A stretch of 42,032 bases of DNA. Source: Thermoplasmata archaeon. Its GTDB lineage: Archaea; Thermoplasmatota; Thermoplasmata; Lutacidiplasmatales; UBA184. Shown in pieces: positions 34,507-37,631 of the stretch. Location: assembly GCA_022749995.1 (NCBI GenBank), contig JAKIWO010000002.1:1-42032 (forward strand), given 5' to 3'. Every line of letters begins with the position of its first letter. Positions within the stretch are counted from its first letter, which is position 1. The notes under the pieces are model-generated. The model did no database searches. It was not told where the DNA came from and saw nothing but the letters and a program-made list of their open reading frames with translations. A program made the position numbers and the translations under genes.

Positions 34507-35205
34507 ATGGTGCAGGTCGAGGACGCGGTGGTGGCCCGGTGGGACACGCAGGGCTCCCGGTTCGAGGTGCTCGTCGACCCGGCCGCGGTCCAGGCGATCA
34601 AGGACGGCAAAGAGGTCAACCTCGCCGACAAGCTGGCGCTCGACCACATCTTCAAGGACGCGAAAAAGGGCGACAAGGTGAGCGACGAGTACCTGGAGAA
34701 GGTGTTCCACACCCGCTCGGTGCCCGAGATCGCCCGGCAGATCGTGCTCAAGGGCGAGGTACAGGTCACCACCGAACAGCGGCACCAGCTGCAGGAGGCG
34801 AAGTACCGCCAGATCGTGGCGGAGATCGCCCGTAACGCCATGAACCCGCAGACCGGAGCTCCGCACCCGCCGACCCGGATCGAGGCAGCGATGAAGGAGG
34901 CGAAGATCCACGTCGACCCGTTCCGCTCGGCCGAGCTGCAGGTCCCTGAGGTGCTCCAGAAGCTACGGCCGCTCCTACCGATCCGCCTCGACAGCGTGCA
35001 GGTGAAGATCCGGGTCCGAGCCCAGGACTACCCCAAGGTGATCGGCGACCTCAAGGGGCTCGGCAAGCTCTCCGAGGAGAGCTGGCTCGGGGACGGGAGC
35101 TGGACCGGCGTGCTCCAAATTCCTGCCGGCGTGCAGACGGAACTGTACGCCAAGCTCAACGCCCGGACCAAGGGAAGCGCCGAGACGACCCTGCTCACCA
35201 AGTAA
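34507..35205 (+). CDS. Ribosome assembly factor SBDS
   Basis: 232 aa. The three SBDS domains can be followed: N-terminal FYSH domain with RWDTQGSRFEVLVDP, a middle helical domain with EIARNAMNPQTGAPHPPTRI and EAAMKEAKIHVDPFRSAELQ, and a C-terminal ferredoxin-like domain with VQVKIRVRAQDYPKV. It releases the anti-association factor aIF6 from the large ribosomal subunit together with an EF-2-like GTPase. Location between psmA and rrp4 is the conserved archaeal order. It is 29 nt from psmA, and rrp4 has its own promoter 13 nt after the stop. Confidence 0.96.
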   Translation: MVQVEDAVVARWDTQGSRFEVLVDPAAVQAIKDGKEVNLADKLALDHIFKDAKKGDKVSDEYLEKVFHTRSVPEIARQIVLKGEVQVTTEQRHQLQEAKYRQIVAEIARNAMNPQTGAPHPPTRIEAAMKEAKIHVDPFRSAELQVPEVLQKLRPLLPIRLDSVQVKIRVRAQDYPKVIGDLKGLGKLSEESWLGDGSWTGVLQIPAGVQTELYAKLNARTKGSAETTLLTK

Positions 35206-35217
35206 CGCGGCGCGCGC

Positions 35218-35227
35218 GTTAAATAAG
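35218..35227 (+). promoter_or_regulatory. TATA box upstream of rrp4
   Basis: GTTAAATAAG, centred 26-27 nt before a GTG at 35249 and 40 nt before the ATG at 35263. The spacing puts transcription start on the GTG, which opens a 31-codon frame rather than the rrp4 frame. Confidence 0.6.
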
Positions 35228-35248
35228 CGGCCCCGGTCGCGCCCGACG

Positions 35249-35344
35249 GTGCAGCACCAAGCATGGACCATGGTCATCGACCCCGCCACCGACGACGGGG
35301 TCGCGAGGATCGCTCCTCGCCAGAACATTCCGAACGCGTTCTAG
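35249..35344 (+). CDS. Leaderless 31-codon ORF overlapping the rrp4 5' end (or displaced rrp4 N-terminus)
   Basis: A GTG at the predicted transcription start opens a 31-aa frame beginning MQHQAWTMVIDPATDDGV and ending NIPNAF before TAG at 35342-35344. Its codons have strong G/C at the third position, like other genes of this genome, while the rrp4 frame through the same DNA does not. So the true coding frame over 35249-35341 is probably this one. Either it is a small separate peptide gene or it is the real N-terminus of Rrp4 separated from the rest by a one-base deletion near 35339-35342. The peptide has no family I recognise. Confidence 0.4.
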   Translation: MQHQAWTMVIDPATDDGVARIAPRQNIPNAF

Positions 35345-36081
35345 TCCTTCCGGGCGAGGAGATCCCCGCCGATGGGCTTCGACCGGGCCCGGGCACGTAC
35401 CGCGTGTCCGGCCACCTCTACGCGAGCGTGCTCGGGCTCGTCCAGCGCAAGCCGCCGATCGTGCGGGTGGCGGCGCTCTCGGGACGGTACGCTCCGCACG
35501 CCGGTGACGTCATCGTCGGCATCGTCACGGACGTGCAGGGCAGCTTCTGGCTGCTCGACATCGGAGCCGCCCGCTGGGCACCGCTCCATATGACCGGCAC
35601 GCCCTGGAAGATCGACTTCGGCGAGACCGGCGAGCACCTCCGGGTGGGCGACTCGGTCGTCGTCGCCGTGGAGCAGATCGAGAACACCGGCCGGATCGGG
35701 GTAACGATGATCGGCGAGGGGCTCGGCAAGCTCGAGGGGGGCACGCTGGTCACCGTCTCGCCGGCCAAGATCCCGCGGGTCATCGGCAAGGGCGGCTCCA
35801 TGATCGCCACCCTGACCCATGCCACCGGTTGCAAGATCGTCGTCGGCCAGAACGGCCGCATCTGGGTGGACGGCCCCCTCGAGGGCGTCGACCGGGTGCG
35901 GGCGAGCCTCGAGCTCATCGAGCTCGAAGGTCAGCGCCGCGGACTCACCGAGCGCGTGGCGGAGCTGCTCGCCTCGAGCGGCCGCGGAGGCCCTGGACCG
36001 GCCCACCCACCGCCCCCCGATGCCGACGCGGGGGACGAGGGCGGAGTGCCGGTCGATTCCGAGTCCTTTCCAGAACAGTAG
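35263..36081 (+). CDS. rrp4: Exosome complex RNA-binding subunit Rrp4 (5' end uncertain)
   Basis: From about residue 25, RVLVLPGEEIPADG begins the Rrp4 N-terminal domain. An S1 domain follows (LKGRY-equivalent ALSGRYAPHAGDVIVGIVTD, then GRIGVTMIGEG) and a KH domain with VSPAKIPRVIGKGGSMI and GCKIVVGQNGRIWV. Rrp4 forms the cap of the archaeal exosome, feeding RNA to the Rrp41/Rrp42 ring. The acidic, Pro-rich C-terminal 35 residues are extra. The only ATG in frame is 35263, but the first 24 residues it gives (Arg/His-rich) look like out-of-frame translation: the third-position GC bias belongs to another frame. A frameshift or sequencing error near 35340 is likely. Followed by rrp41 after 9 nt. 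Confidence 0.88.
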   Translation: MDHGHRPRHRRRGREDRSSPEHSERVLVLPGEEIPADGLRPGPGTYRVSGHLYASVLGLVQRKPPIVRVAALSGRYAPHAGDVIVGIVTDVQGSFWLLDIGAARWAPLHMTGTPWKIDFGETGEHLRVGDSVVVAVEQIENTGRIGVTMIGEGLGKLEGGTLVTVSPAKIPRVIGKGGSMIATLTHATGCKIVVGQNGRIWVDGPLEGVDRVRASLELIELEGQRRGLTERVAELLASSGRGGPGPAHPPPPDADAGDEGGVPVDSESFPEQ

Positions 36082-36090
36082 GAGACCTCT

Positions 36091-36852
36091 ATGGGAAACG
36101 TGGGAGCGAGTGAAGTGCCGCAGCTGATCGGACCCGATGGCCTCCGTATCGACGGGCGGAGGGCGGACGAGCTCCGCCCGATGCGGGTCGTCGCCGGACC
36201 CCTCAAGCGCGCCGACGGCTCGGCGTTCGTCGAGTGGGGCGCGAACAAGGTGATGGCCGCGGTCTACGGGCCGCGGGAGGTGCATCCCCGCCACCTGCAG
36301 GTCAACGACAAGGCGATCGTGCAGTGCAAGTACAATATGGCGGCGTTCTCCGTCGATGAACGCAAGCGGCCCGGGCTCGACCGGCGGAGCCAGGAGATCT
36401 CCAAGGTAATCGCCGAGGCGTTCGAGTCGGTCGTCTTCGCCGAGGAGTTCCCCCGCACCAGCATCGACGTCTACATCGAAGTGCTCCAGGCCAATGCCGG
36501 CACCCGCTGCGCCGGCATCGTGGCGGCCTCCGTCGCCCTCGCGGACGCGGGGATCCCGATGGTGGACCTGCTCCCGGCCGTGGCCGTGGGCAAGGTCGGT
36601 GGCCACATCGTCCTCGACCTCAAGAAGGAGGAGGACAACTTCGGCGAGGCCGACCTGCCGATGGCGCTCGTCCCGCAGAGCGGACGGATGGTCTTGCTGC
36701 AGATGGAGGGGCACCTGAACCTCGAGGAGCTCAAGCGCGCGCTCGATCTCGGCGTCGGCGGCTGCCGCGCCATCTACGAGAAGATGAAGCAGGCGTTGCG
36801 CGACCGGTACTCGGTCGATCCTCCGACCCCCGTGGCGGAGGTCGCGGCATGA
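36091..36852 (+). CDS. rrp41: Exosome complex exonuclease subunit Rrp41
   Basis: 253 aa. RNase PH-fold catalytic subunit that phosphorolytically degrades RNA 3'-5' or adds A-rich tails. Family marks: [33 protein letters not shown], the phosphate-binding region around [20 protein letters not shown]-equivalent [18 protein letters not shown], and the catalytic acid in [13 protein letters not shown]. An AGGAGA just upstream (about 36083-36088) is one of the few Shine-Dalgarno-like sites in the window, which fits an internal operon gene. Its stop overlaps the rrp42 start (ATGA). Confidence 0.97.
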
Positions 36853-37631
36853 GCGGCGAGGTCACGGCCGAGATCCTGACCACCCATATCCTCGAGCTCG
36901 CGCGCGAGGGCCGGCGACTCGACGGACGCGCGATCGACGACTACCGGAAGGTCACGCTCGAGCCGGGCTACGTCACCTCCGCCGACGGCTCCGCGCTCGC
37001 CCGCATCGGCGACACGGTGGTGCTCTGCGGCGTCAAGCTCGAACCGGGCAAGCCGTTCCCGGACACCCCCAACGCCGGAGTGCTGACGACCAACGCCGAA
37101 CTGATCCCGCTCTCCTCGCCGGCGTTCGAGCCCGGTCCGCCCCACCCGAGGGCGATCGAGGTCTCGCGGGTCGTCGACCGGGCGCTGCGCGCCGCGGAGG
37201 CGATCGACCTCAAGGCGCTCTGCATCACCTCGGCGGAGAAGTGCTGGACCTGTTTCGTGGACATCCACGTCCTCGACCACTCCGGCAACCTCATCGACGC
37301 CGCGCTGCTCGCGGCCTCCACCGCCCTCTCCCATACCACGATGCCGCGGGTGCGCTTCGGGCTCGCCGAGACCGACATTCCTCTCGACGTTCGGCACCTC
37401 GCGATCGAGACGACGTTTGCCCGACTCGGGGACGCCATCGTAGTGGACCCGAGCGTGGACGAGGAGACCGCCTGCCAGGGCCGGCTCACGATCGCCACCG
37501 ACGAGGCCGGCAACATCGTCGCGATGCAGAAGGGTCTCGTCGGCGCGTTCGGGCCCAACGAGGTCGTCGAGCTCGCCGAGCGCGCCTTCCGCCACGGCGA
37601 CCGGCTGCGCGCCCAGATCCGCGGAGGCTAG
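36849..37631 (+). CDS. rrp42: Exosome complex subunit Rrp42
   Basis: 260 aa. RNase PH-fold partner of Rrp41; Rrp42 lacks the active-site acid but shapes the hexameric ring. Seen: [60 protein letters not shown] and the C-terminal [19 protein letters not shown]. It overlaps rrp41 by 4 nt and is followed by rpl37ae after a single base, the conserved archaeal order. Confidence 0.97.

Follow-up and report, generated by a model that had tools for sequence, protein, structure and literature searches.

Leaderless mRNAs are widespread in archaea, where AUG, GUG and UUG are all usable as start codons and Thermoplasma is named among the heavy users (PMC7531240). For translation in mycobacteria, a 5'-terminal ATG or GTG is both required and sufficient (Shell et al. 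2015, PMC4633059), and leaderless small open reading frames (ORFs) and overlapping upstream ORFs, mostly under little codon-level selection, have been found there by ribosome profiling (PMC4633059; pervasive translation, PMC9094748). The present analysis concerns the 5' end of the rrp4 gene of a Thermoplasmata archaeon, which lies in a stretch of 42,032 nucleotides (the window; GenBank assembly GCA_022749995.1, contig JAKIWO010000002.1, forward strand) belonging to a 1.6-Mb assembly in 95 contigs. Rrp4 is an RNA-binding cap subunit of the exosome, and the first codons of its gene are overlapped by a 31-codon ORF that opens at a GTG ahead of the rrp4 ATG. This ORF resembles the mycobacterial ones in its putative 5' RTG start and differs from them in being archaeal, in being documented by comparative evidence only, in the strong conservation of its start and stop, and in the paired RNA hairpins that accompany it. 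The features of the locus that enter the argument are listed below.

35219..35226, + strand: TATA-like promoter box TTAAATAA, with a box in 82/82 relatives and a spacing as in leaderless-type genes
35247..35251, + strand: CGGTG, an initiator-like CGG plus the GTG start codon (GTG 35249-35251) at the predicted transcription start
35249..35344, + strand: overlapping upstream ORF of 31 codons, +1 relative to rrp4, probably leaderless
35263..36081, + strand: rrp4, an Arg/His-rich tail (codons 2-25) followed by ECR1_N, S1 and KH domains (Pfam and NCBIfam), the tail frame being common to 82 relatives
35279..35302, + strand: RNA hairpin P1, longer local form GACCCCG...CGGGGUC, predicted by a fold of the window RNA, with compensatory changes in relatives
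35303..35320, + strand: RNA hairpin P2, GCGAGGA-UCGC-UCCUCGC, 7 pairs, predicted by the same fold, with compensatory changes in relatives
35341..35343, + strand: rrp4 codon 27, Leu CTA, a rare codon that makes the +1-frame TAG (35342-35344)

Three further systems bear a likeness to this locus. The cysteine-rich regulatory leaderless small ORFs of mycobacteria, as they are cited in PMC9094748, are likewise conserved leaderless short ORFs at the 5' end of a gene or operon; as presented there, they are attenuators with conserved cysteine codons, whereas the rrp4 ORF overlaps the main start and is without such a codon run. Similarly, START-type coding-region structures (PMC7664666) place a stable hairpin just past the footprint of the initiating ribosome, at +16 to +19 compared with from about +22 onward at rrp4; they were proposed from eukaryote and prokaryote screens, and rrp4 adds covariation, a further hairpin and a rival start ahead of the main one. 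The ambush hypothesis, in the outline given by PMC3700767 and PMC5909447, also invokes synonymous codon choice that creates off-frame stops, but describes a disputed genome-wide statistical trend, whereas rrp4 offers one nearly fixed site tied to a particular upstream start. The literature searched yielded no case of an archaeal exosome gene regulated through an upstream ORF or an RNA structure.

Protein searches recovered rrp4 in 95 of the 103 genomes of the family, and the loci compared comprise 82 from genera g1, g5 and g6 together with 12 from the sister genera g2, g3, g4 and g7. The 82 species belong to Candidatus (Ca.) Lutacidiplasmatales, three genera of uncultured acid-soil archaea; Ca. 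Lutacidiplasmatales AcS11-62, AcS5-34 and SubAcS15-67 are same-genus relatives whose names and acid-soil origin are taken from PMC9287336. Comparison of these 82 species indicates that the start and the stop of the overlapping upstream ORF have been kept by selection, their conservation being far beyond chance. In the window, the ORF starts ahead of the ATG, runs in another frame and ends inside rrp4, encoding the peptide MQHQAWTMVIDPATDDGVARIAPRQNIPNAF from the GTG at 35249 to the TAG at 35342-35344. The GTG stands at -14 relative to the rrp4 ATG in 81 of the 82 species and at -16 in the remaining one (L009); its three bases have undergone 0, 0 and 1 parsimony changes, the T being unchanged throughout, while most other leader positions show 4-26 on a tree of 19.2 substitutions per site. 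A TATA-like box is located at -43 to -45 from the ATG in all 82 relatives, where it overlaps the final codons of the upstream SBDS gene. In the window this box begins about 30 nt ahead of the GTG, leaderless-type genes of the same genome having 28-31 nt from box to start, and the short ORF is, judged from this distance, probably leaderless; in one relative genome, box-to-start distances form two classes, of about 27-30 nt and about 38-49 nt. Box, GTG and ATG at the rrp4 spacing occur together in 9 of 21 sampled genomes, once in each of the nine and at rrp4, and the 12 sister-genus species have neither ATG nor GTG at +28 to +31 from the box.

The stop is conserved through the choice of a rare codon. 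In 79 of 82 species, the GTG frame closes at the Leu codon of the (V)LVLPG motif, which is usually the first place where a +1 stop can occur. This codon, Leu27, is CTA or TTA in 78 of the 81 species that have Leu there, although elsewhere in rrp4 1.0% of Leu codons are CTA and 0.1% are TTA (together 1.1%), and its third base has changed twice on the tree, compared with about 19 changes at an average third position. A general AT-rich codon ramp at the gene start was considered as the cause of CTA and rejected, because Leu29, only two codons further on, is A-ending in no more than 4 of 82 species and the neighbouring codons are likewise not fixed as A-ending. The exceptions each hold an alternative stop: in L036, CTG is followed by ATT (Val to Ile), which yields TGA in the GTG frame; in L053 and L058, the Leu codon is CTC, but a rare Val codon of the tail, GTA, yields TAG and TAA 17-18 nt earlier; and in L009, the GTG at -16 opens the other frame, in which TGA follows after 28 codons. 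As a result, the GTG-opened frame closes at rrp4 codons 20-28 in 82/82 species. Under synonymous resampling, the frame would extend to a median of about 73 codons; the per-species probability remains modest (median 0.086), and the case for the stop therefore rests on the Leu27 codon and the covariation rather than on this probability. In the sister genera, 11 of 12 species have no stop at the corresponding Leu.

The third component is a pair of RNA hairpins, which begin about 21 nt past the rrp4 ATG in the family alignment. P1 takes the form GGCCAC...GUGGCC over codons 8-14 in most relatives, and P2 takes the form GCGAGGG/CCCUCGC in the family, its column pairs 64-75 and 67-72 in alignment A1 (60 species; 13 helix pairs scored) showing compensatory changes. 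The third positions of tail codons 8, 9, 14, 15, 18 and 19 are strongly constrained and those of codons 10-11 and 16-17 vary freely, a pattern that fits two such hairpins. In the alignment, 86.8% of cells pair, compared with 41-54% in slid registers; both sides have changed in 10 of the 13 pairs; double-changed cells number 53 against 18.0 expected and 6-24 in slid registers; tree-based compensatory changes from paired to paired sum to 15.6 against 0-1.7; and none of 500 shuffles reaches any of five helix measures. An all-pairs G-test covariation scan with a tree-based null was only suggestive (E of about 2 for the best helix pair) and not significant alone, and RNAalifold returned a first consensus without structure; for these two reasons the helices appear well supported as real, but not beyond doubt. 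Moreover, folding energy alone is not taken as proof, because local folding is weak against gene-wide codon resampling (mean z -0.45, not above control windows); against within-tail codon permutation it is stronger (mean z -1.67). With a covariance model built from the whole element, strong sites number one per genome, always at rrp4, and are confined to g1, g5 and g6 among the nine genomes searched, sister-genus rrp4 genes giving no significant match; Rfam gives a single sub-threshold match elsewhere in the gene and no described RNA family at the element. Outside the hairpins, the nucleotides CATCG (35275-35279, rrp4 codons 5-6) are nearly invariant, in the relatives as well. For instance, His5 is CAT in 66 of the 68 species with His there, CAC being 88% of His codons elsewhere in the gene, and codons 3 and 5 with the adjoining CATCG form a constraint within the tail that the hairpins do not explain.

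A start, a stop and hairpins kept by selection in over 80 species suggest that an archaeal exosome gene carries a hitherto undescribed element of translational control. With a probability of roughly 0.6, the rrp4 5' end is such a conserved element, in which a leaderless overlapping upstream ORF and structured RNA would tune the synthesis of Rrp4. Transcription would start at or adjoining the GTG at 35249, and some ribosomes would begin at the 5' GUG without a leader and read the 31-codon frame out of the rrp4 frame, crossing the rrp4 ATG 14 nt on and leaving at the TAG at rrp4 codon 27, while others would start at the ATG and make Rrp4. Because the GUG-started ribosomes would read through the rrp4 start before they exit at the UAG, they would compete with AUG initiation, and a weak leaderless GUG would suit a minor, tunable competitor. 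The hairpins would probably influence which start is used or serve as the binding site of a regulator, for which the exosome cap is a possible candidate; P1 lies immediately past the stretch of mRNA that an initiating ribosome occupies, so that the hairpins may favour the AUG or hold such a regulator. An autoregulatory switch, in which Rrp4 or another factor binds the hairpins and shifts ribosomes between the GTG mini-ORF and the ATG, is conceivable since Rrp4 is itself an RNA-binding cap subunit, but is put forward as a rather doubtful extension; were it true, the level of the exosome would control its own synthesis. If translational control of this kind operates here, archaea would be able to use leaderless initiation to throttle a main gene by means of a rival start. 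The locus would then also offer a remarkably clear natural record of how selection acts on an out-of-frame stop, including stops that shift frame with the start, and an indication that short overlapping ORFs are detectable by comparative genomics alone in unculturable lineages.

Several points weigh against translational control as the function of the element. The transcription start and the translation of the short ORF are read from sequence comparison, and the true 5' end may lie 1-2 nt away from the GTG. Leaderless GUG starts are weak in some haloarchaeal reporters (PMC4983044). The encoded peptide is only loosely conserved, and what conservation it has may derive from the hairpins and the Rrp4 tail. 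In addition, a single origin of the arrangement may be common to the three genera, in which case the co-occurrence of GTG and stop, set against the sister genera, amounts to about one event.

The competing explanation that survives best, tentative as it is, regards the stop as damage control: a GTG happens to be part of the initiator motif, or the ATG has GGTG as its Shine-Dalgarno-like site, and the stop merely limits a stray leaderless product. The EF-1alpha genes of the family carry CCGGAG where rrp4 has CCGGTG, the spacing from the box being similar, and CCGG-G therefore looks like an initiator motif; the CGG around the GTG is probably just that, and the T is probably what marks rrp4. Damage control also agrees with the CG ahead of the GTG, which is conserved about as strongly as the GTG, and with the resampling result, by which a frame without the stop would run on to some 73 codons, while general selection for out-of-frame stops is a matter of debate in the ambush literature as outlined above. 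However, the T of the GTG has not changed in 82 species, even though GAG (in EF-1alpha) or GTA (in the rrp4 of L016) is accepted at that place and a single base change would therefore remove a stray start; the fixed 14-nt spacing and the hairpins are likewise left unexplained. That the GTG is kept for the use of the short ORF, rather than tolerated with a safety stop, is thus favoured by the invariant T, if not settled by it.

Three observations belong beside the EF-1alpha comparison. At the EF-1alpha loci (L188-L217), the initiator-like motif CGCGCCCGGAG is conserved about 27-30 nt past the TATA box, at the predicted transcription start. EF-1alpha was considered as a second conserved case of the rrp4 arrangement and rejected, because a GTG occurs only in the gene of G047 (contig C4, 220142-221419), where GTG-CCC-TAG and then ATG stand at the predicted 5' end, the in-frame stop following almost directly; the other 29 genes are without a GTG at that place, nearly all having GGAG. 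On the same contig, a likely aldolase gene (299301-300365) has GTG-TTC-TGATG at its predicted 5' end.

That the ORF encodes a functional micropeptide whose sequence matters, in a case of dual coding, is unlikely. The third positions of tail codons 3, 5, 8, 9, 14, 15, 18 and 19 are unusually constrained and would give a loose motif, E-V-I-x-P-A-T...V-A-A-R..P-R, in the other frame; yet six of these positions lie in hairpin stems, the loop codons 10-11 and 16-17 vary and the paired positions covary, so that RNA structure accounts for the constraint without a peptide, and the peptide has no match in family profile searches. The preliminary description of this locus, made from the window alone, had raised a tiny leaderless gene over the rrp4 start: as a conserved genetic element the short ORF stands, whereas as a gene for a conserved micropeptide it gives way to an overlapping upstream ORF, which is probably the better description and which includes the hairpin pair that had gone unremarked. 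The sequence facts reported then (the GTG ORF, the TAG, the rrp4 frame, the Arg/His tail and RVLVLPGEE) are all correct, as is the contrast in third-position GC (12 of 24 in rrp4 codons 2-25 versus 26 of 31 in the GTG ORF). High third-position GC in the GTG frame, however, loses its value as coding evidence, because the third position of that frame is where rrp4 codons begin, and codons for Arg (CGN), Gly, His, Pro, Asp and Glu open with C or G. Similarly, that the +1 frame stays open over the length of the tail follows almost by itself: a stop in it requires a T in the middle of an rrp4 codon (Val, Leu, Ile, Met or Phe), and such codons are nearly absent from the tail.

A natural or programmed frameshift, by which ribosomes from the GTG would shift into the rrp4 frame near the TAG and produce an alternative Rrp4 N-terminus, is very improbable. 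The stop does sit exactly where the Rrp4 core begins, and in L038, alone among the species, the rrp4 ATG is replaced by AAG; nevertheless, orthologous rrp4 starts carry the Arg/Gly/His-rich tail in the annotated frame in 82/82 species and the ATG in 81/82, and the sister genera have longer in-frame Arg-rich tails (43-168 residues) without such an ORF. This is the outcome that the preliminary description had itself named as refuting, and the split N-terminus suggested earlier is refuted by it. Control of exosome cap levels by frameshifting, also proposed at that time, finds no conserved slippery sequence ahead of the stop, where the bases vary (TAC, CAC, TTC, TGC and others). Moreover, the hairpins lie upstream of the stop, stimulators usually being downstream, and the stop moves in L053, L058 and L009 without a common shift site. 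A base missing from the window through assembly or sequencing error, to which nothing but the apparent frame conflict near 35339-35342 pointed, can be dismissed as scarcely credible, since the same arrangement recurs in 81 other species from many separate assemblies. In L038 (genome G049), the upstream GTG ORF is intact, and the AAG at the rrp4 start is either an assembly error or an unusual Rrp4 start.

The gene order around the element is proteasome alpha, SBDS, rrp4, rrp41 and rrp42, with every gene on the + strand, and the neighbours of rrp4 are as follows.

34507..35205, + strand: SBDS ribosome assembly factor gene, upstream neighbour (TIGR00291, 264 bits)
36091..36852, + strand: rrp41, exosome catalytic subunit, downstream neighbour (TIGR02065, 344 bits)
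36849..37631, + strand: rrp42, downstream neighbour (NF003282, 290 bits)

The rrp4 ATG is at 35263, and the N-terminal tail MDHGHRPRHRRRGREDRSSPEHSE precedes RVLVLPGEE. The Pfam matches of the protein, ECR1_N, RRP4_S1 and KH_6 (PF14382, PF21266, PF15985 and PF00013), are all above cut-off, while the NCBIfam Rrp4 equivalog model, covering residues 24-237, scores 192.5 bits and misses its cut-off of 200; the name Rrp4 is still supported by the domains and by the gene order SBDS-rrp4-rrp41-rrp42. Among the sister genera, eight rrp4 loci (L016-L020, L022, L025 and L026) encode an in-frame N-terminal tail of 85-168 residues that is of low complexity and rich in RGG/RG, and with this tail the exosome cap may possess an RNA-binding extension.
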